Part shown: in pieces, positions 20,185-32,237 of the stretch
Layout: each line of letters begins with the position of its first letter
Position numbering within the stretch: the first letter of the stretch is position 1
Origin: Saccharothrix deserti
GTDB taxonomy: Bacteria > Actinomycetota > Actinomycetes > Mycobacteriales > Pseudonocardiaceae
DNA: 64,000 nucleotides
Assembly (NCBI RefSeq): GCF_009769385.1
Contig: NZ_ML775962.1
Location: forward strand, 252,955 to 316,954
Direction: 5' to 3'
Translations under genes and position numbers: made by a program
The notes under the pieces: generated by a model
What the model was told of the DNA's origin: nothing
The model's database searches: none
Seen by the model: the letters and a program-made list of their open reading frames with translations, nothing else

Positions 20185-20234
20185 GGTCACGCATCGGTCA
20201 TTGGTCACCGGTCACGCATCGGTCATCGGTCACG
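20185..20234 (+). repeat. Two near-perfect 25-bp tandem units
   Basis: GGTCACGCATCGGTCAT begins each 25-bp unit (20185-20209 and 20210-20234). The units differ at only two positions. They lie in the divergent promoter region between the ECF sigma gene and the MFS gene. They could be binding sites or a replication-slippage product. Confidence 0.65.
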
Positions 20235-20251
20235 TCGGATCGGGGGAGCTG

Positions 20252-21448
20252 TTGGGCGGGGGCACGGGGTTCCGCGCGGTGTTCGCGGTGCCGGAGTTCC
20301 GGGTGCTGTGGTCGGCGGCCGTGCTGTCGACCGTCGGCGACCAGCTGGCCCGGGTGGCGCTGTCCGTGCTGGTGTTCCAGCGCACCGGGTCCGCGGCGTG
20401 GACCGCGCTGACCTACGCGTTGACGATGCTGCCCGCGCTCGTGTCCGGCGTGCTGCTGACCGGCCTGGCCGACCGGTACCCCCGGCGGACCGTGATGGTG
20501 GTCGCGGACGTCGTGCGGGCCGTGCTGCTGGCCGTGATGGCGGTGCCCGGCGTGCCGCTGCCGCTGGTGGCGGCGTTGCTCGTGGTCGCGCAGCTCGCGG
20601 AGCCGCCGTTCGCCGCCGCGCAGGGCGCGCTGCTGCCGTCCGTGCTGGGGGACCGGTACGAGGCCGGGCAGTCGGTGCACCTGATCACCCACCAGGCGGG
20701 GCTGCTGCTGGGGTTCGTCGGCGGCGGTCTCGTGGTGGCGTGGCTGGGCACGTCCGGGGCGTTGCTGGCGGACGCGGTGACGTTCGCGCTGTCGGCTCTG
20801 CTGCTGCGGTTCGGTCTGCGTCAACGGCCCGCTCCCGCGTTCGTGCCCGCCGTCCACGTGCGGATTCGCGCCGGTGCGGCGTTGGTGTGGCGGGACCGGA
20901 GGCTGCGGCTGCTGGTCGGGTTGGGGTGGCTGGCCCTGTTCACCGTGGTGCCGGAGGGGCTGGCCGCGCCGTTCTCGGCGGAGGTCGGCGCCGGCGCGGC
21001 GGGCGTCGGCCTGCTGCTGGCCGCCGACCCGGCCGGGATGGTGCTGGGGACGGTCCTGCTGCGCTTCCTGCCCGCGTCGGTGCGCGTGCGGCTGCTCGGG
21101 CTGCTCGCCGTCGCCACGGCGCTGCCCCTGGTCGGCTACCTGCTCGCGCCGAACCTCGTCGGGGCGGCGGCGTTGCTCGCGTTGAGCGGCGTGTTCAGCG
21201 CGTACCAGGTGACGGCGGGGGCCACGTTCGTCCGCCTCGTGCCGGACGAGCAGCGCGGCCAGGCGTTGGGCTTCGCCCGCAGTGGCCTGGTGGCCGCGCA
21301 GGGGATCGGCGTGGCCGCGGGCGGGCTGCTGGCCACCGTCGCCGGCTCGGCGACCACCGCCATCGCCGTGGCGGGCATCGCGGGCACCGTCCTGGCCCTT
21401 GCCGCCACCTCCGCTTGGTCGCGGGTCGCGCCTGCCGCGGTGAACTGA
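20252..21448 (+). CDS. MFS transporter (drug-exporter-like)
   Basis: A ~398-aa major-facilitator protein with about 12 membrane helices. FRVLWSAAVLSTVGDQLARV starts helix 1, and the helix 2-3 loop LADRYPRRTVM matches the conserved G-x-L-a-D-r-x-g-r-r motif. LVPDEQRGQALGFARSGLVA is typical of the enterobactin-exporter-like/MFS_3 group. The substrate is unknown. The start is uncertain: TTG 20252 after GGGGGAG (short spacing) or GTG 20279. The frame continues open upstream through the tandem repeat without a convincing start. Confidence 0.82.
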   Translation: MGGGTGFRAVFAVPEFRVLWSAAVLSTVGDQLARVALSVLVFQRTGSAAWTALTYALTMLPALVSGVLLTGLADRYPRRTVMVVADVVRAVLLAVMAVPGVPLPLVAALLVVAQLAEPPFAAAQGALLPSVLGDRYEAGQSVHLITHQAGLLLGFVGGGLVVAWLGTSGALLADAVTFALSALLLRFGLRQRPAPAFVPAVHVRIRAGAALVWRDRRLRLLVGLGWLALFTVVPEGLAAPFSAEVGAGAAGVGLLLAADPAGMVLGTVLLRFLPASVRVRLLGLLAVATALPLVGYLLAPNLVGAAALLALSGVFSAYQVTAGATFVRLVPDEQRGQALGFARSGLVAAQGIGVAAGGLLATVAGSATTAIAVAGIAGTVLALAATSAWSRVAPAAVN

Positions 21449-21472
21449 CGGGATTGCGGGTTGGTCGGCGGT

Positions 21473-21552
21473 CCTCGTTGTTTCAACCGACGTTTCAACC
21501 CAAAGATTACAGCGTTTTCTTAGGTCGTCGGGGCATGATCACCCGATCGTGT
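21473..21552 (-). repeat. Dispersed ~80-bp inverted repeat, copy B
   Basis: Inverted partner of 12527-12607, 25 nt after the MFS stop. It keeps the doublet GTTGAAAC-GTCG-GTTGAAAC and the ACACGATCGGGTGATCATG end. That end overlaps a degenerate version of the CGCGACAAGATCTGGTGA block seen three times just to the right. Confidence 0.75.
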
Positions 21553-21661
21553 CGCGTGGGACGTGTGCTGCGCGGTGCGCCGGCCGCGGGAGTCGGAGGC
21601 TCGCCGCGGCCCGCGCCTGGCTCCGGGGGGCATCGTTCACGGTCGTCTGCGGAACTCCGCA

Positions 21662-21682
21662 TCACCAGATCTTGTCGCGCAT
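21662..21682 (-). CDS. Seven-codon minigene M-R-D-K-I-W-stop, copy 1
   Basis: Minus strand ATG CGC GAC AAG ATC TGG TGA. A GGAGG (complement of 21692-21696) ends 9 nt before the ATG. Copies 2 and 3 are identical from codon 2 to the stop but have different flanking sequence and intervals. Identity stops at the edges of the reading frame apart from the ribosome-binding site, as expected if the peptide or its translation is selected. No known family is recognised. A DNA-level repeat remains the alternative. Confidence 0.5.
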   Translation of the reverse strand: MRDKIW

Positions 21683-21737
21683 GGCGGCGCACCTCCCCTC
21701 GGCAATGGCGGCGGTCGGAACCGGGTCGGTAGGGGGA

Positions 21738-21758
21738 TCACCAGATCTTGTCGCGCAC
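21738..21758 (-). CDS. Seven-codon minigene M-R-D-K-I-W-stop, copy 2
   Basis: Minus strand GTG CGC GAC AAG ATC TGG TGA. GGAGG (complement of 21766-21770) ends 7 nt before the GTG. It lies 55 nt upstream of copy 1 on the same strand. The start codon is the only base that varies among copies (A or G at its first position), and both forms are valid starts. Confidence 0.5.
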   Translation of the reverse strand: MRDKIW

Positions 21759-21823
21759 AACCGCACCTCCGTCCGTCTCGACAGGACTCGACAGGCCCTC
21801 GAAAGGGCTGCTGACCAGCGGTT

Positions 21824-21844
21824 TCACCAGATCTTGTCGCGCAC
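21824..21844 (-). CDS. Seven-codon minigene M-R-D-K-I-W-stop, copy 3
   Basis: Minus strand GTG CGC GAC AAG ATC TGG TGA. GGAGG (complement of 21853-21857) ends 8 nt before the GTG. It is the first copy met by transcription from the 21860-21960 region, which it would share with the divergent GGDEF gene. No modification-enzyme gene lies on this strand downstream. The next gene there is the convergent MFS. Confidence 0.5.
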   Translation of the reverse strand: MRDKIW

Positions 21845-21964
21845 CGCAATCACCTCCAGCGGGTTGCGTCACCCCGGTAGCGGCTGACATCCGCGCAGGT
21901 CACCATTACTGTGACCCTCCGTCCGGATACCATGACAGTCCGGGATAGACAGTCGTGAGGAATC

Positions 21965-23290
21965 ATGGGCACAGCGCGTTCGACGTCGTCGGGCGATCGA
22001 CGCTGGTCACTATGGTCCCTGCCCAGGCAGGCCCTGGTGTACGTGCTGTCGGTGGATCTGCTCGCCACCGTCGCGATCGCCGCCACCACCGCCTGGCCGG
22101 TGCCCACCGACTCCTGGACCACGTTCGCCGTCCTGCTCGGCTGCGCCGCGCTGCACCTGCACTGCTCCCGCTGGATCGAACGCATCCGCCGCGACCACAG
22201 CCACCTGCCGCACGTCGACCTGTGCAGCATCTGGATCCTGGCCGGCGCGCTGGTGCTGCCGCCGACGCTCGCGGTCGCGCTCGTCGTGATCATGTACGCG
22301 CACCGCTGGTGGGTCGTCGGCCGCTGGGACGCGTCACGTCCACCGCACCGGTGCGTGTTCACCACGGCGATGATGGTGCTGGCCACGCTCGCCGCGAGCA
22401 CCGTGGCGGGTGTCACCGGCCTGCGCGACCACCTCCAGGCCGGGCAGCCCGGAGGCGCGCTCGACCTCGTCGGACTGGTCGGCGCTGGCACCGCCCAGTG
22501 GCTGGTCAACACCGCCCTGGTCGCCGCGGTGATCCTGCTGACCGTCCGGCCCCGCTCGGTGAAGGACTCGCTCGGCAGCGCCGCGGACAACCTCCTCGAA
22601 GCCGGTCAGCTCGCGATGGGCGGGTTCGTCGCCCTCGGCGTGGCGTGGTGGCCCGGGTTCGCGGTGCCGATGGTCGTCGCGGCCGTCGCCCTGCACCGCA
22701 CCGTGCTCATCCACCAGCTGGAGCTGGCCGCCCGCACCGACACCAAGACCGGCCTGCTCAACGCCGAGGCGTGGCACCTGCAGGCCACGCTGGAGCTGCA
22801 GCGCACCCGCCAGCAGCCGCCGGGCGCGAGCGTCGGCCTGTTCATGATCGACGTCGACCACTTCAAGGACATCAACGACACCCACGGCCACCAGACCGGC
22901 GACCTGGTGCTGCGGCGGATCGCGGCGGCGCTGGAGTCCGCGGTGCGGCGCGGTGACGCGGTGGGCCGCTTCGGCGGCGAGGAGTTCGCCGTGCTGCTGC
23001 CGGGCGTGGAGCACGAGGAGGCGATCGCGATCGCCGAGCGGATGCGCTCGGAGGTGCACCGGGTGATCGTGGACGACGGCAACGGCGGCATGGTGGCGGG
23101 GCTCACGGTCAGCATCGGCATCGCGGTGTGGCCGGACGTCGCCGAGGACACCGTGGAAGGACTGCTCGCGGCGGCCGATTCCGCGCTGTACGAGGCGAAG
23201 CGGCTCGGCCGGGACCAGGTGCAGGCAGCGGGCAGGCGGCGCCGTTCACCGTGGACGCCGGCGGCGAGATCGGAACGGCCCGGCGTGTAA
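21965..23290 (+). CDS. Membrane-bound diguanylate cyclase (GGDEF)
   Basis: A 441-aa protein. The N-terminal half (about 1-250) has six or more hydrophobic segments and probably senses a membrane or small-molecule signal. The C-terminal GGDEF domain (about 255-420) has TDTKTGLLNAEAWH, FMIDVDHFKDINDTHGHQTG and an intact GGEEF active site. An RxxD inhibitory site (RRGD) lies five residues before GGEEF, so it should make c-di-GMP with product inhibition. No EAL domain is present. The ATG at 21965 follows GAGG. The CHAT-protein gene begins 108 nt downstream and could be cotranscribed. Confidence 0.9.
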   Translation: MGTARSTSSGDRRWSLWSLPRQALVYVLSVDLLATVAIAATTAWPVPTDSWTTFAVLLGCAALHLHCSRWIERIRRDHSHLPHVDLCSIWILAGALVLPPTLAVALVVIMYAHRWWVVGRWDASRPPHRCVFTTAMMVLATLAASTVAGVTGLRDHLQAGQPGGALDLVGLVGAGTAQWLVNTALVAAVILLTVRPRSVKDSLGSAADNLLEAGQLAMGGFVALGVAWWPGFAVPMVVAAVALHRTVLIHQLELAARTDTKTGLLNAEAWHLQATLELQRTRQQPPGASVGLFMIDVDHFKDINDTHGHQTGDLVLRRIAAALESAVRRGDAVGRFGGEEFAVLLPGVEHEEAIAIAERMRSEVHRVIVDDGNGGMVAGLTVSIGIAVWPDVAEDTVEGLLAAADSALYEAKRLGRDQVQAAGRRRRSPWTPAARSERPGV

Positions 23291-23398: not shown

Positions 23399-26300
23399 GT
23401 GGATCTCGGTGCCCCGCACGGAATTCGTTTCCGCTTCGAGGCGGGGCTGCTGCGTGCCGTCCTGCTCGACGTGCACCGCAAACCGCCGGTCGACGCCGGT
23501 GAGGAGCTGACCGCCGAGGCGGGCGCGCGCGACCTGCTGGTCGACGAGACCCGCGACGGTCACGTGCGCGCGGTGCTGCGGCAGCGCTTCGACCTGCCCG
23601 CGCCCGCACGCTGGCGGCTCGCCGTCGACGCGCCCGCCACCGAGACCGGCGACGGGGTGGCGTTCGCCCTGCCGGACTCGGTGTCGCTGCTGGTCTCCGG
23701 CTCGGAGCCGTGCACGGTCGAGGACGGCGGTGTGTCCGTGGAGCTGCCCGCCGGCGAGTCGGAGCTGAGCGTCACGGTGACCAGCGAGCCGGTGTTCGAG
23801 GTCGGTGACACGGCCGTGGTGTGCCGCCCGGACCAGGTGCGCGAGGCCGCGGTCGTGGTGTCCTGCCTGCCCGCCGACCGCGTCACACCCGTCCTCGCGC
23901 TGAGACCCGGGGACGAGTCATCGCACCGGCACGACGGGCTGGTGACCGAGCTGCTCACCGCGATGGGCGTGCGCCGTGCGGTGTTCCTCGACGAGCCGGA
24001 CACCGAGCTGTTCCCCGACCTGCCCGAACGCCTCCACCTGCCGTGCGAGGACCCCGTCGGCCTGACCGGCAAGGCGTGGGAGCTGCTGCGCGGCGGCGGT
24101 GAGCCCGAACGCACGCTGGACGTCGCGCCCGACGCCGACTTCGTCGCCGCCCTGTTCACCGCCCTGCGCACCGGTTCGGCGCTGCGCGTGGACGACGGCG
24201 CGCCGCCCGTGCCGTTCGCCGAGCACAACCCGGACGGCGGCGACGAGGCCGTGCTGGTCGAGCGCACCGGCGAGGTCGACGACCTGACCGCCGCCCTCTA
24301 CGCGCACCACCGCGGCGCCCGGCTGGTGATCACGCCGAAGCCGGACCTGACCGAGGTGTGCGCCGTGGTGGCCGAGGAGCAGGACCGGGTCACCGCGGCG
24401 GCCGGCGCGATCGGCGACGCGGTCAAGGGCATCGGGTTCGTCGAGGCGCTGTGGCGGTACCTGTCGACCGGCGGGCACGACCCGTACGCGACGGTCGAGG
24501 CCGTGGTCACCGCGCAGGTGCCGGCCGAGGTCGTGGCGGAGGTCGGGGACCGCACGCTGACCGCGTTCACCACCGGCCTGCCCTACTCGTTCGTGCACAC
24601 CGAGACGGTGAACTGGGCGCGCAAACCGATCGGGCACGTGGTGGCCGACCCGGCGCTGGTGGTGCTCACCGAGCTGCACCGCGCCGGCGTGGCACGGGAG
24701 CCCGGCGCGTTCAGCCTGGTGTTCGACTCCGGGGCGTTCCTCGAGGTGCCGGAGACCACTGCGTCCCTGGGGCACCACACTCACCCGATCGTGCTGTCCG
24801 GTCAGGACGCGTCACCGGACGCGCTGCGCCACCTGGTCGAGGACCTGCCCGTCGAGCTGGTGTTCTTCAACAGCCACGACGCCGACGACGCGATCCTGCT
24901 CGGCGGCCACGAGCTGCCGGACGCGGACATCCCGGTGACCCTGCGGCACCGCCCGATCGTGTTCAACAACTCCTGCCGGTCGTGGACGGCGCTGGGGCGC
25001 GAGTTCGTGCGGGCCGGCGCGCGCGGCTACATCGGCACGCTGTGGACCATCCCGGCGAACCTGGCGGCGGGGTTCGCCCGCACCGTCGTGCGGCGGCTCA
25101 CCGCCGAGGAGACGCCCGCCGCGCGCGCCATCGTCAACACCGGCACCCCCGGCGGCATCGAGCGGTCCTACCTGTACGTGGGCACGGTCAACGGCAGGCT
25201 GGACGAGTGGCGCGACCGGTCCACCACCGACGCCGAGGCGGCGCTGACCGGGTGCGAGCTGCTGGCCGCCGCATCCCGCGACTGCGCCGCACCCCTGTCG
25301 TCGGTGCTGCACCGGGAGATCTCCGCGCTGCGCGAGGTCGCCGAGCGGGGCGGCGTGACCGACACCCCGTCGTACGCCGACGTGCTGCTGGCCGAGCTGC
25401 GGCTGGAGGACGACGACGAGCGGGCCGCCGCGCTGGTCGAGCGGATCGACGCGCTGCTGCCCGATCTCGACCTGCCCGACGACGAGGTCGAGCCCCTGTG
25501 GGCGACCAGGTTCGAGGTCACCGGTGCGCGATTCGAGCGGCGCGGGGAATACGCGGCGGCGCTGGCGGACTTCGAACGGTGTGTGGGCTTGGGCGACGCG
25601 TGCCGCGACCGAGCGGCCGTCCTGCTGCGGATGGCGAGGCTGCTGATGCACGAAGGCAGAACCGACGAGGCCGGACAAGCGGCGCGGCTGGCGTACGAAG
25701 AACACCTCGCGCGCGAGAACAGGGCCGGGCGGCTGGAGGCGATCACCGTGCTCGACGGCATCGGCGACGCGGACTCCCGGACCGCCCTCCGCTACGCCGT
25801 GGAGGGCCACGACCTGGCCGAGGAGCTGGGCGACCGCGCCCGGCAGGCCGCGTTCAAGCTCGCCGAGTGCGACCGGCACCGGGAGAACGGCGACCTGGCC
25901 GAGGCGATCGAGGCCGGGTCCCGTGCCGTGGAGCTGTTCCGCGCCGAGGGTGACGACCGGCAGGAGTTGGCCGCGTTGCGCCGGCTCGGCGCGTGCCACC
26001 GCGACCGGGGCGACCTGGAGACCGCGCAGCACTACGCCGTCGTCGGCCTCGCCCGCGCCGAACAGGTGGGCGCGGCGGCCGAGGTGGCGTCGTTCCACGA
26101 CGACCTGGGCGGCGTGCTGGCCGCGCGCGGTGAGCACGGCAAGGCGTTGGAGCACTACCGGCACGCGGTGGAGAAGCTGGTCGCGACCGGCGCGTGGGAG
26201 CGCGGCGCGGAACTGCTGCCGCACCTGGCCGTCGGCGCGGTCCGGGCGGGCGACCCGGAGGCGCTGTGGACCGCGGCCCTGTGCGGCGGCCTGATCTGCG

Positions 26301-26665
26301 AGGTCGCGCCGCGCGAGGTGTGGGCGTCGGTCGTGCCGCTGGTGGTGGACTCGATGAAGCGGGCGATCGAGACCGGGCCGCTGGAGCTGACCGAACGCGG
26401 CATGACCGACTTCGCCAGCGCGGTGACCACCGGCAAGCGCGAGGACATGCCGTTCCAGGTGGGTCTGCTCGCGGACGTCGTGGTCGTGCTGCTGGCGTGG
26501 CTGATGGACCGCACCGACCCCGACATCCTCGGGTTCGCCCGCGAACTGGACCGCACCAGCGGCGGCGTGCTCGACCTCGTCGGCTACGTGTCGGTGCCGT
26601 ACGCCGAACGCGCCCGCAACCCCGGGGTCGGCCGGTCGCGGCCTACCAGTGGCGGCCCACGCTGA
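23399..26665 (+). CDS. CHAT-domain protease with C-terminal TPR array
   Basis: A 1088-aa protein. The N-terminal ~380 residues are unrecognised. A CHAT (caspase-HetF-associated-with-TPR) peptidase domain spans about 390-610. The probable catalytic dyad is His493 in VFFNSHDADD and Cys526 in IVFNNSCRSW, followed by RAGARGYIGTLWTIPANLAA and AAGFARTVVRRL, which match CHAT C-terminal strands. About residues 690-990 form helical TPR-like repeats (AALADFERCVGLGD, YAVVGLARAEQVGAAAEVAS, ALEHYRHAVEKLVATGAW). CHAT-TPR proteins act as regulated proteases in conflict and cell-death systems. The GTG start is uncertain (23391 is out of frame). The stop overlaps the convergent gene by 23 nt. Confidence 0.85.
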   Translation: MDLGAPHGIRFRFEAGLLRAVLLDVHRKPPVDAGEELTAEAGARDLLVDETRDGHVRAVLRQRFDLPAPARWRLAVDAPATETGDGVAFALPDSVSLLVSGSEPCTVEDGGVSVELPAGESELSVTVTSEPVFEVGDTAVVCRPDQVREAAVVVSCLPADRVTPVLALRPGDESSHRHDGLVTELLTAMGVRRAVFLDEPDTELFPDLPERLHLPCEDPVGLTGKAWELLRGGGEPERTLDVAPDADFVAALFTALRTGSALRVDDGAPPVPFAEHNPDGGDEAVLVERTGEVDDLTAALYAHHRGARLVITPKPDLTEVCAVVAEEQDRVTAAAGAIGDAVKGIGFVEALWRYLSTGGHDPYATVEAVVTAQVPAEVVAEVGDRTLTAFTTGLPYSFVHTETVNWARKPIGHVVADPALVVLTELHRAGVAREPGAFSLVFDSGAFLEVPETTASLGHHTHPIVLSGQDASPDALRHLVEDLPVELVFFNSHDADDAILLGGHELPDADIPVTLRHRPIVFNNSCRSWTALGREFVRAGARGYIGTLWTIPANLAAGFARTVVRRLTAEETPAARAIVNTGTPGGIERSYLYVGTVNGRLDEWRDRSTTDAEAALTGCELLAAASRDCAAPLSSVLHREISALREVAERGGVTDTPSYADVLLAELRLEDDDERAAALVERIDALLPDLDLPDDEVEPLWATRFEVTGARFERRGEYAAALADFERCVGLGDACRDRAAVLLRMARLLMHEGRTDEAGQAARLAYEEHLARENRAGRLEAITVLDGIGDADSRTALRYAVEGHDLAEELGDRARQAAFKLAECDRHRENGDLAEAIEAGSRAVELFRAEGDDRQELAALRRLGACHRDRGDLETAQHYAVVGLARAEQVGAAAEVASFHDDLGGVLAARGEHGKALEHYRHAVEKLVATGAWERGAELLPHLAVGAVRAGDPEALWTAALCGGLICEVAPREVWASVVPLVVDSMKRAIETGPLELTERGMTDFASAVTTGKREDMPFQVGLLADVVVVLLAWLMDRTDPDILGFARELDRTSGGVLDLVGYVSVPYAERARNPGVGRSRPTSGGPR

Positions 26666-28298: not shown

Positions 28299-31200
28299 GT
28301 GTGGGCGCGACGCGCACTGTCCATCGGGGTGACCGGGTTCGAGCGGCACGAACGCCTCGACTTCGCGCCCGACCGGGTCCGGCGGCTGGGCAAGGCCCTG
28401 GCCGACTTGGGCTACGACGTGCGGGAGGTCGCGCCGGAGACCCTGCCGAGCGGCGAACTGGGCGCCCTGGTGACCGAGACCCTGACCAGCGCGAGCAGCG
28501 ACGACCTCGCGATCGTGCACCTGGTCTCGCACGGTGAGCCGGCCGACGGTGGCGCCACCCTGTTCGCCCTGGGCAGCGACGGCCTGCCGCACCCGGACAC
28601 GAGCATCGCGCACTGGCTGACCGTGCAGCAGGCCACCGAGCAGCCGTTGACGCTGTTCCTGCTCGACCTGTGCTCGGCGGGTACGTCCGCCCGGTTGCCG
28701 TGGCAGGTGCGGCTGGAACGGCCGATGCGCGGCTGGGTCGTGGCCGCGTGCGGGCCGGCGGAGTCCGCCTACGACGGCCGGTTCACCGAAGCCGTGATCA
28801 CCGTGCTGGAGGCGGTGCGCGCCGGCGAGCTGGACATCGACCCGAGCATGTCGCACGTGCCGCTGAGCACGGTCGCCCGCGCCATCCGGCAGGAGGTCAA
28901 CCGGCTCGCCGAGGCCGACGACGCGTTCCCCCAACAGGTCACCGCGAGCCTGGTGGACATCAGCGCGGACGTCGACCCGGCCTTCTTCCCCAACCCCGCC
29001 TACGACCCCGCTCCCCGGCCCAGGCTGCGGGCCGCGGTCGACCCCGGCGTGCTGCCGTTCCTGGACGACCTCGACGAAGGCCTGGACGCCCGGCACTTCC
29101 TGGAACGGGCCACCGGCCTCGGTCGGCTGACCGACACCAACTCCGGCCTGGTCGGCTGCTTCACCGGCCGCGACCGGGAGCTGAAGCAGATCTCGCCCTG
29201 GCTCAACGGGGTCGGCGACGAGCCGCTGTGCGTGGTCACCGGCAGTCCGGGCGCGGGCAAGTCCGCGTTGCTCGGCGTGCTGGTCTGCGCGGCCAACCCG
29301 CTGCTGCGCGAGACCACCAGACCCATCTGGAACCGGGTCGCCCAAGCGCCGCTGCCGATCCGCGAACTGGCCGCGGTGCACGCCCGGCAGCGCGGCCTGG
29401 CCACCGTCGTGGCGTCGATCGCCCGCCAGCTCGGCCTGCCGGAGAACTCGTCGGCGGCCGAGCTGACCACTGCGTTGCGTGGCCGGTCGGCCCGGCCGGT
29501 GCTCGTACTGGACGCGTTGGACGAGGCCGACGACCCGGACAGCCTGATGACCGAACTGCTGCTGCCGCTGACCGACCCGGACGCGCCGGGCACACCGGTC
29601 CGCCTGCTGGTGGGAGTGCGCCACTACGAGAACTTCGCGCCGCTGTTCGAACGGGCGTGGCTGGTGGACCTGGACGACGTCGAGCAGGCCGTCTTGGAGG
29701 ACAACCTCTTCGACTACGTGAAGAGCCTGCTGCGCACCACCGCCGAGTACCGCAGGCAAGGCGGGGTGACCGGTGCGTTCGCCCACTCCGTGGCGAGCGT
29801 GCTCGCCGAGCCGGACGCCGACGGGCGGCGCCGGTGGGGCCCGTTCCTGGTGGCCGGGCTGTACACCAGGCACTTCATCACCGCCAACGCCGAGAAGGTG
29901 GTCACCGACCCGGTGCTGGCGGCCGAACTCGGCGAGCGGGTCCCGGCCGACCTTCGCGGCGTGCTGGAACTCGACCTGGAATCAGAGCGCGACCAGTTCT
30001 GGCTGCGCCCGGTGATGACCGCGCTGGCACACGCGCGCGGTGCCGGGATGCCGGTCTCCGTGCTGGCGCGGATCGCACCTGCGTTCGTCGACCCGGGCGC
30101 ACAACCGGCACTACAACCGGCGCCACAGCCGACCGCCGCACACATCCGCTCCGTGCTGTTCATCGCCAAGTTCTACCTGCGCCAGTCGATGGACTCCGAC
30201 CGCAGCAACCTCTACCGCCTGTTCCACCAAGGCTTGGCGGACACGCTGGCCGAGCCGTCGCCGCAGGTGGCGAGCGCGGTGCTGGACGCCATGCTGTCGT
30301 CGCTCGGCGCGCCGGACAGCCGGGACTGGGACGCCGCCGAGCCGTACCTGTTCCGCCACGTCGCCGCACACGCCGCGGACGCCGGCCGGTCATCGGAGAT
30401 CGAGACCGATCCGGGCTTGTTCCTGCACCCCGATTCGTCGCTCGCGCTCACCGCGGCGGCCGACGACTCGCACGCGGCGGAGTCGGTGGCGAACAGCGCA
30501 CGCCTCTACGCCGGCATCACGTCCCCGGAGGAACTCGCCCTCGCCGCCGCCCGAGCCGGTGACATCGAGCTGGCGAGACGTGCCGCGAACGTGGCCGGTC
30601 GGCCACCGTTGACCTGGCAACCCCGCTGGACCGTCGGCTCGCCGGTGGCGGTGGACGGGGTCCGGCAGGAGGTGCCGTCACCGGGGCAGGACGAGCCCGA
30701 CAGGTTCGAGTCCACCGCCATCTCCGCCGACGGCTCGCTTGTGGCCGCGGTCGGTGTGGACGGCCTGGTTTCCTGGTCCTGGAAGAAGGGCGTGGAGCCG
30801 TCCCACCCGGAGGCTTCCCTCGATGTTCCGGGGTACCTGGTGCTGATGTCGATGGACGGCGATGAGCTCATCGTGGGCATTCCCGGCACCTTGGTCAGCA
30901 TGCGCGATGGAGCGAGCTGCGTGTTCACCGCGATCACGGTGGCAAGAGTGAGGGCGGCAATCCCATTGGGTGGGCCGGAGTACCTGTGCGTGAGCGTCGA
31001 CGGGGAGATCGCGCGGTACGACATCCAGGGCGGGACGTACGAGATCCTGCAACGGACCGGCCATCGCGGTGACTCCTGGGCGGTCGCGCACGGAAACGGC
31101 AGCCCAGTGGCGGTGTCCCTGGACACCGGCCGCCAGCTGGTGTTGTTCAAGGACGGGCACACCTGGAACAACCTCTACCCGGTGCACCAGCCCGTCAGCG

Positions 31201-32237
31201 CCTTCGCGATCAGCCCGGACGGCAGCTGGCTGGCCGCGGGCACCGAGGACGGCTGGGTCGGCCTGGAGGATCGCCACAACAACGTCAGCTGGAAGTACAC
31301 CAACGTGCTGGGCGACGCGGTGACGGCCCTGGCTTTCGCGCCGCACGGCAGCTTGGTCGCCGCGGGCTGCCGCGACGGCAGCGTGTCCGTCGTGCGGTTG
31401 GACGGCAAAGTCGACGGTTCGGCCCGGCTGTCCGACCGGCCGATCACCGCGGTCGCGATCAGCGATCGGTTCAGCCGGGTCGTCGCCCTGGACAGCGGCG
31501 GCCGTGCCCATTGCTTCGATCCCGTCAGGGGTACGACGTCCCGCCTCCGCGCTCCGCACACCTCGGTCATGGAGGACGAGCCTGCGAGCGAGGCTCGTCA
31601 GTGGGAGGTGCCGGTCGTCACCGCGTTCATGACCACGGAGGGTGACACCCTGGCCGGCTACGCGGACGGGTCCTTCGTCCGGGTGGACACCGTCACCGGC
31701 GACGTGCACACCGGGATCGAGCTGGATGCGCCCGCGCGCGACCTCGTGGTGGTCGACATCGGTGGCCGGCCGGGGCTGTTGGCCGCCACACCCAAGGGGT
31801 ATTGGTTGGCCCACCGCGATGTGGGCGATGGCGGTCCGACCTATCTCGGTTACGGCGACTGGGCCGCGGGAAGGTTCCGGTCCAGGGCTGCGGCATCGCA
31901 CATCGGGCTGGACGGGCGCCTGGTCGAGGTGGTGCACAGCGGCGACATGCTGTCGATCAAGAAGGTGAGCGGCGGCGGGTTCCTGCCGGAGCCACTGGGT
32001 GAACACCCCGGCTGCCAGGTTGTGCACTGCGCCTACTTCGGGCACCGTCCGCTGGCGTTCACCGGTGGCGCCGACGGGTGCGTGCGTGTGTGGGACCTCG
32101 GCATCCGCCAACTGGTCGACACGCTCGACATCGGTCAACCGGTCTGGCGGATCGACACCGTCGAAGGGCGGCACCTGTTGATCGGCGCGGGCGGCGAACT
32201 GGTCGCTTTCGAACATTTCACCGGGAGTAGGGCGTGA
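28299..32237 (+). CDS. Caspase-like peptidase / STAND NTPase / beta-propeller protein
   Basis: A 1312-aa three-part protein. The N-terminal caspase-like (C14) domain (about 1-230) has the dyad His78 in IVHLVSHGEP and Cys125 in LFLLDLCSAGTS. The NACHT/STAND NTPase (about 280-720) has Walker A GSPGAGKS at 315-322 and Walker B VLVLDALDEAD starting at 401. From about residue 790 there are degenerate WD40-like blades (TAISADGSLVAAVGVDGLVS, AFAISPDGSWLAAGTEDGWV, LAFAPHGSLVAAGCRDGSVS). By analogy with caspase-STAND defence and cell-death proteins, the propeller would sense a trigger and the NTPase would oligomerise to activate the protease. The stop overlaps the next gene by 4 nt. Confidence 0.87.
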   Translation: MWARRALSIGVTGFERHERLDFAPDRVRRLGKALADLGYDVREVAPETLPSGELGALVTETLTSASSDDLAIVHLVSHGEPADGGATLFALGSDGLPHPDTSIAHWLTVQQATEQPLTLFLLDLCSAGTSARLPWQVRLERPMRGWVVAACGPAESAYDGRFTEAVITVLEAVRAGELDIDPSMSHVPLSTVARAIRQEVNRLAEADDAFPQQVTASLVDISADVDPAFFPNPAYDPAPRPRLRAAVDPGVLPFLDDLDEGLDARHFLERATGLGRLTDTNSGLVGCFTGRDRELKQISPWLNGVGDEPLCVVTGSPGAGKSALLGVLVCAANPLLRETTRPIWNRVAQAPLPIRELAAVHARQRGLATVVASIARQLGLPENSSAAELTTALRGRSARPVLVLDALDEADDPDSLMTELLLPLTDPDAPGTPVRLLVGVRHYENFAPLFERAWLVDLDDVEQAVLEDNLFDYVKSLLRTTAEYRRQGGVTGAFAHSVASVLAEPDADGRRRWGPFLVAGLYTRHFITANAEKVVTDPVLAAELGERVPADLRGVLELDLESERDQFWLRPVMTALAHARGAGMPVSVLARIAPAFVDPGAQPALQPAPQPTAAHIRSVLFIAKFYLRQSMDSDRSNLYRLFHQGLADTLAEPSPQVASAVLDAMLSSLGAPDSRDWDAAEPYLFRHVAAHAADAGRSSEIETDPGLFLHPDSSLALTAAADDSHAAESVANSARLYAGITSPEELALAAARAGDIELARRAANVAGRPPLTWQPRWTVGSPVAVDGVRQEVPSPGQDEPDRFESTAISADGSLVAAVGVDGLVSWSWKKGVEPSHPEASLDVPGYLVLMSMDGDELIVGIPGTLVSMRDGASCVFTAITVARVRAAIPLGGPEYLCVSVDGEIARYDIQGGTYEILQRTGHRGDSWAVAHGNGSPVAVSLDTGRQLVLFKDGHTWNNLYPVHQPVSAFAISPDGSWLAAGTEDGWVGLEDRHNNVSWKYTNVLGDAVTALAFAPHGSLVAAGCRDGSVSVVRLDGKVDGSARLSDRPITAVAISDRFSRVVALDSGGRAHCFDPVRGTTSRLRAPHTSVMEDEPASEARQWEVPVVTAFMTTEGDTLAGYADGSFVRVDTVTGDVHTGIELDAPARDLVVVDIGGRPGLLAATPKGYWLAHRDVGDGGPTYLGYGDWAAGRFRSRAAASHIGLDGRLVEVVHSGDMLSIKKVSGGGFLPEPLGEHPGCQVVHCAYFGHRPLAFTGGADGCVRVWDLGIRQLVDTLDIGQPVWRIDTVEGRHLLIGAGGELVAFEHFTGSRA

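Follow-up and report, generated by a model that had tools for sequence, protein, structure and literature searches.

Introduction

In microcin C clusters, the precursor peptide ends in a C-terminal Asn, the exporter MccC belongs to the major facilitator superfamily (MFS) and the ThiF-type adenylating enzyme MccB, whose gene adjoins the minigene, is the mark of such clusters. Biarylitides are recognised by a pentapeptide whose third residue is Tyr and whose fifth is aromatic; the pheromones of Firmicutes (Phr, PapR and the enterococcal sex pheromones) are active as peptides of 5-8 residues, each with its own receptor, and are cut from longer exported precursors. The present work deals with three identical minigenes encoding the hexapeptide MRDKIW in a stretch of 64,000 nt from Saccharothrix deserti (NCBI RefSeq assembly GCF_009769385.1, contig NZ_ML775962.1, positions 252,955 to 316,954), hereafter the window, where they lie upstream of a divergently read gene for a membrane diguanylate cyclase (DGC). 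With a probability of about 0.55, these minigenes would be tandem hexapeptide genes belonging to a module that associates an MFS transporter, an ultra-short peptide and a membrane DGC, the peptide being exported and then sensed by its own DGC.

The likeness to microcin C resides in the gene itself, since mccA is a seven-codon gene devoid of any longer leader and since, in the accessible part of the source, length is constant while the peptide is variable (PMC6495379). Unlike microcin C, the minigenes considered here form tandem arrays, have a DGC as constant partner and are accompanied by no conserved modifying enzyme that could be found; instead of a C-terminal Asn, MRDKIW ends in Trp and other peptides in S, T, D, G, Y, F or H, those ending in N being the MRDNNWN arrays and one MRDTTWN copy. 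As regards biarylitides, bytA (18 bp, with the P450 gene bytO) is likewise an ultra-short gene that annotation overlooks; it occurs in actinobacteria, a Saccharothrix among them, and its precursor begins with MR, as far as the available text of that report goes (PMC13417212). The differences are the tandem copies, the DGC partner, the absence of a P450 motif from the neighbourhoods and the window, the absence of Tyr-x-His and a length that does not follow the pentapeptide pattern, MRDKIW and the others being hexapeptides or of other sizes. Compared with the pheromones of Firmicutes, the gene itself is here only six or seven codons long and the output would be cyclic diguanylate (c-di-GMP). In the literature searched, whose coverage leaves out most subscription papers, no report was found of these peptides, of the module or of an encoded peptide tied to a c-di-GMP-making receptor, and a census of c-di-GMP stimuli, in its accessible part, uses the word 'peptide' once, with reference to potential ligands of a different type of domain (PMC8846402). 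While the parts have relatives, their combination could not be placed in any known kind.

The minigenes and their conservation in related genomes

In reading order on the minus strand, the minigenes are located at 21824..21844 (GTG start, GGAGG at 21853-21857), 21738..21758 (GTG start, GGAGG at 21766-21770) and 21662..21682 (ATG start, GGAGG at 21692-21696), each encoding (f)MRDKIW followed by a stop codon and each matching RTGCGCGACAAGATCTGGTGA exactly. The GGAGG stands 8, 7 and 9 nt ahead of the respective starts, and neighbouring copies are separated by 55 and 65 nt; the three blocks, their gaps and the distances of 9, 7 and 8 nt ahead of the starts at 21682, 21758 and 21844 had been reported by the initial annotation and were recovered unchanged on measurement. 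Allowing up to 3 mismatches, the window has no further copy of RTGCGCGACAAGATCTGGTGA, and shuffled windows contain 0.01 match on average, none of 100 shuffles having three. Genome-wide, the 17-nt core TGCGCGACAAGATCTGG has no exact copy other than the three of the window; at 2 mismatches, 9 extra scattered matches appear vs. 8 for a reversed-pattern control. A decayed fourth copy can be discerned at 21539..21559 of the minus strand (CCA-CGC-GAC-ACG-ATC-GGG-TGA), with neither start codon nor Shine-Dalgarno sequence (SD).

Among 25 genomes of one genus code, including that of the window and many close relatives, the minigene array was found in 21, with 57 copies in all: 48 are exact (18 genomes), six encode MREKIW (three genomes) and the remaining three correspond to a TTG start, to MRDRTW and to a lost stop (G018). 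An orthologue of the DGC (E <= 1e-100) is present in exactly these 21 genomes, the other four having neither. Besides, the array is carried by all 13 named full-length relatives (nine from Saccharothrix, two from Umezawaea, one from Lentzea and one from Actinosynnema), that of Actinosynnema pretiosum encoding MREKIW; a DGC homologue search gave 80 loci, of which the remaining 67 match chiefly in their GGDEF portion. Other genera of the family still have MRDKIW upstream of DGCs with 58-60% identity, and a DGC with 49% identity is preceded by two copies of MSDKGW, one using AAG and one AAA. The pattern SD + RTG-nnn-GAn-AAR-nnn-TGG-TGA was matched in 29 of 346 genomes of the family, one of which (G144) is a stray match with no DGC in its retrieved neighbourhood. 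In another genome (locus L049 of G067), a single MRDKIW minigene is followed some 80 nt on by a same-strand gene, in place of the MFS gene.

Across homologous minigenes, the start codon, SD and frame are retained, the SD-to-start spacing varying by a few bases, and the flanks and spacing between copies differ. What the initial annotation regarded as evidence against coding, i.e. a block kept after loss of its start or frame, amounts to the lost stop of G018, out of the 57 copies, and to the decayed copy of the window.

Peptide genes upstream of paralogous diguanylate cyclases

The survey was extended to 99 DGC loci, some of them close relatives, namely 30 from the first homologue search, the next 40 listed and 29 from a later search, two DGC matches near contig ends (G035:C555 and G083:C10) being excluded. 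In the 450 nt upstream of these genes, the divergent strand holds 119 SD-led open reading frames (ORFs) of 4-10 codons distributed over 66 loci, a filter-free count that excludes long repeat ORFs. By comparison, there are 11 such ORFs in 11 loci on the opposite strand of the same regions, 7.1 on average (maximum 15) over 100 rounds of shuffling of the upstream regions and 10 at 8 of 195 other genes taken as control from 20 neighbourhoods and the window. Lengths peak at six codons (52 ORFs) and seven codons (47), which together account for 99 of the 119 ORFs.

The DGCs about 35-50% identical to that of the window have different tiny genes on the divergent strand upstream. In the same family, six-codon peptides comprise MRNRES (five copies), MATREG, MTSRDQ, MRGKDW, MRGVEY, MGGIEY, MNGRED, MTNKDW and MRTREH, and in family f32, presumably Micromonosporaceae, tandem seven-codon genes encode for instance MRDNTWT, MRDTTWS or MRDNNWN. 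Many of the peptides contain an aromatic residue, usually Trp; several, such as MATREG, MNGRED and MRNRES, have none. The most populated array contains 11 copies (L252), 10 of them SD-led. In some loci, a single ORF of 22-50 codons with a repeated unit is present instead, e.g. RPTDWLRPTDWARPTDW, DSHWNRDSHWNR or STDWTF, RPTDW being one example of such an internal repeat; the four tandem 15-codon genes MRDTNWVLRDTNWSW of L253 (rows 221, 314, 461 and 554), with two units each, appear as an intermediate form bridging minigene arrays and multi-repeat ORFs. At least four family codes (f1, f32, f29 and f24) include DGCs of this type with an adjoining peptide gene, and most f1 and f32 loci also have an MFS gene. 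In f32, the pattern SD-MRDxxWx-stop is confined to the DGC locus, 71 of its 74 sites (15 of 22 genomes) being immediately upstream of a DGC and three elsewhere (G501:C4:932335, G492:C91:128084 and G554:C29:47), keeping in mind that the pattern was drawn from known f32 arrays whose genomes are among the 22, which are not an independent sample; across the phylum, 396 genomes gave no match to it.

Several DGCs with differing peptides may coexist in one genome. In that of S. deserti, three copies of MRDKIW are found at the window locus and MRNREW at another MFS-DGC locus, and a third DGC of this type (L299, G000:C42:25874-27073) is without peptide gene. This third DGC gene is divergent from an apparent histidine-kinase gene.

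Coding evidence

Between tandem copies, the ratio of nonsynonymous to synonymous differences (pN/pS) is 0.083 (pS 0.207, pN 0.017) for equal-length SD-led ORFs within a locus (34 groups, 119 ORFs), with no filter on the peptide, and 28 codon columns vary only synonymously vs. 16 with an amino-acid change. When copies are chosen by DNA similarity alone, there are 28 and 13 such columns and the ratio is 0.094. An earlier set of 32 arrays also gave 0.083, with 27 synonymous-only columns vs. 10, but this set, as well as the rule assigning a peptide to 82 of the 99 loci, used motif lists drawn up with the data already in view, a possible cause of a lower pN. A pN/pS of 0.08-0.09 between tandem copies indicates that the minigenes are coding and under selection on the peptide; together with the start codon and SD spacing, it designates them, as far as sequence comparison goes, as ultra-short protein-coding genes. 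Of the options put forward by the initial annotation, that of peptide genes is consequently favoured over regulatory minigenes and a binding-site array, by the pN/pS as much as by the kept start, SD and frame.

The synonymous change with kept peptide anticipated by the same annotation is observed in homologous arrays but not for MRDKIW itself, whose codon set is identical in all 49 matches (18 of 60 genomes) to a pattern allowing CGN, GAY, AAR and ATH. In the genes of the window, codon usage reaches 0.93 for GAC, 0.91 for AAG and 0.97 for ATC, so that the invariance of the Asp, Lys and Ile codons can be attributed to codon bias. Of note, the Arg codon is CGC in all 49 matches despite a usage of 0.39 (39%), which codon bias leaves partly unexplained.

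Linkage to the MFS gene and pairing of peptide and DGC

Gene families were surveyed by BLAST in 21 neighbourhoods, i.e. 20 kb of the window and 20 further stretches of that size, where only the DGC and the MFS (14 of 21) recur widely; no third family was present in more than four of the 21 by this means, ThiF not being searched by profile. The 64-kb window and the 20 neighbourhoods (20 kb each) contain neither a P450 nor a radical-SAM motif, as judged by motif scan and not by profile search, the scan for the P450 heme motif covering ORFs of at least 150 aa. The initial annotation noted no modifying enzyme nearby, which is borne out for the motifs tested, but it overlooked the constant divergent DGC and the frequent MFS gene. 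With ten MFS proteins as queries, an MFS homologue is present upstream in 68 of the 99 DGC loci and on the DGC strand in 68 of 68. Peptide and MFS gene are found together in 60 loci, the peptide only in 22, including the four MLRGVTW loci, none of which has an MFS neighbour, the MFS only in eight and neither in nine; a candidate with a weaker SD exists in five of the 17 loci that lack a peptide. Wherever both occur (60 loci), the array is on the strand opposite to the MFS and DGC genes, as in the window.

On a tree of 59 DGCs, peptide labels (25 peptide types plus 'none' for four rows) require 26 changes vs. a minimum of 25 and an average of 47.1 with shuffled labels, this quick tree having long branches of unsure placement. 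The peptide follows the DGC tree and, as judged from these sequences, DGC lineages have their own peptides.

A c-di-GMP feedback via BldD was also considered. BldD-like boxes (TnAC-N5-GTnA) occur in 20 of the 99 loci (23 sites vs. 5.5 in shuffles), yet the g1 loci encoding MRDKIW or MREKIW are devoid of them, and this feedback is therefore not retained as part of the explanation here. In L270, L273, L274 and L276, a BldD-like box TTACACATCGTTA is located 88-91 nt ahead of the matched DGC start.

The diguanylate cyclase and the surroundings of the array

The DGC gene (21965..23290, plus strand, divergent from the minigenes) encodes a protein of 441 aa, with a membrane domain over about residues 1-250 and a C-terminal GGDEF domain at residues 257-418 (PF00990, E 3.6e-42). 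The GGEEF and RxxD motifs are both present, and the GGDEF domain is predicted to be of the catalytic GG(D/E)EF type. For the N-terminal domain, the structural model corresponds to a six-helix S-component fold; the structure comparison considered the best matches only, and the absence of other families among them is not taken as evidence. The 5TMR_LYT domain (PF07694) is not among the Pfam matches of the DGC proteins searched, and MASE9 gives a weak match in 4 of 36. In the accessible part of the literature on receptors with S-component fold (LytS/5TMR type, e.g. BtsS), some have fused GGDEF domains, and the likeness extends to a predicted six-helix core with an extra N-terminal helix and a cytoplasmic output domain (PMC11109136). 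The DGC differs from them in that 5TMR is not among these Pfam matches and in the peptide gene linked to the receptor gene.

The array occupies the gap between two plus-strand genes, the DGC and an MFS transporter gene, and is read opposite to both. The latter gene, convergent with the minigenes, is given as 20306..21448, from the MFS_1 region to the stop, its true start being slightly upstream and not fixed. Directly before the first SD, a block TGTCAGCCGCTACCGGGGTGAC at 21868..21889 of the minus strand, conserved in an alignment of 21 rows including the window, forms an imperfect palindrome and is possibly part of an operator or promoter; a palindrome GGTCAC-N7-GTGACC at 21898..21916, between the minigenes and the DGC gene, is another possible operator. 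GGTCAC, which provides the arms of this palindrome, also occurs several times at 20186-20236, directly before the MFS gene, and from these common sites one regulator could possibly act on both the MFS and DGC genes. No sigma-70-type promoter was found in 21300-22100, Rfam gave no match in 21400-22000, and the sole terminator-like site in 21300-22100 is on the plus strand at 21458-21474, just past the MFS gene. Further on, a TPR/CHAT protein is encoded at 23399-26665, near a large WD40 protein with a STAND-type NTPase domain at 28299-32237.

Proposed function and alternatives

In the proposed module, the product would be N-formyl-MRDKIW or a trimmed form thereof. Ribosomes would make the finished peptide directly, as the six- and seven-codon forms would have no signal peptide or leader to remove, and peptides from repeat ORFs would require cutting. 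The yield may be raised by the tandem copies and perhaps also by re-initiation on very short frames. For microcin C, tiny frames of 2-8 codons are re-translated by one ribosome in vitro, and less so as the frame lengthens, in the part of the work available (PMC6495379); the strict length of six to seven codons could result from such repeated translation of tiny frames, which fits the many copies. The peptide would then be exported by the MFS protein and bound by the S-component-like domain of the DGC, which would change c-di-GMP output; it is thus by inference that export, binding, c-di-GMP output and the sense of the effect enter the scheme.

Alternatively, the peptides could be precursors akin to microcin C or to ribosomally synthesised and post-translationally modified peptides (RiPPs), exported by the MFS protein and modified by enzymes encoded elsewhere, with the DGC regulating the locus or responding to the product. 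Minigene precursors of 5-7 residues have precedents in biarylitides (PMC13417212) and microcin C (PMC6495379), from what is accessible of both sources, multi-repeat ORFs resemble multi-core precursors and the frequent aromatic residue would suit such products; still, this appears unlikely, considering that several peptides lack any aromatic residue and that the BLAST survey of the 21 neighbourhoods and the motif scan of the 20 neighbourhoods and window returned, besides MFS and DGC, no widely recurring partner and no P450 or radical-SAM motif. The results of this survey and scan are also the grounds on which a RiPP with a nearby enzyme was rejected. It is somewhat less probable again that the peptide acts without export, as a small intracellular regulator of the DGC or MFS protein: the 22 loci with a peptide and no MFS homologue in the stretch examined, including all four MLRGVTW loci, would be accounted for, but four of these 22 have less than 650 nt upstream, where MFS absence is uncertain, and the predicted sensor domain resembles proteins binding outside ligands, in the accessible part of their description (PMC11109136).

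Much more improbable is a regulation by the act of translation, through ribosome or peptidyl-tRNA trapping or attenuation, the peptide being inert. While strict length, strong SDs, numerous copies, the re-translation of 2-8-codon frames by one ribosome in the available account (PMC6495379) and the same-strand gene downstream of the minigene in L049 all agree with it, the conservation of the peptide far exceeds the needs of trapping, the peptide differs between DGC lineages and some loci have the array replaced by a single ORF with internal repeats. Besides, the array is opposite in strand to the MFS and DGC genes, and the layout of a leader-peptide attenuator, with a short ORF upstream on the same transcript, is encountered neither in the window nor in the 60 loci where the peptide and the MFS gene coexist, L049 being the exception. 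As for a DNA or RNA element, such as an operator array or an antisense RNA mimicking minigenes, the invariant DNA of the MRDKIW core (49 of 49 matches) and the position of the array region between divergently read genes would be in line with it; the codon evidence, the same gene layout with different DNA in homologous loci and the negative Rfam search over 21400-22000 largely refute this candidate, which is barely credible.

Conclusions

Beyond the window, the module of transporter, peptide and DGC could represent an unrecognised form of actinobacterial signalling, though the odds are slightly against so broad a view, in which tandem minigenes would directly yield hexa- and heptapeptides, a dedicated MFS protein would export them and the S-component DGC encoded alongside would sense them, with several private peptide channels operating in parallel within one cell and feeding into c-di-GMP, a messenger that controls development in related bacteria. 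If true, this would mean that a gene family extending across several actinobacterial families has been overlooked by annotation because its members are 21-24 bp long, and that a genetically encoded peptide is tied to a c-di-GMP-making receptor. As each DGC would come with its predicted ligand, synthetic peptides could be applied directly to cells, and the different loci would offer matched peptide-receptor pairs as a natural series for work on the evolution of signal specificity.
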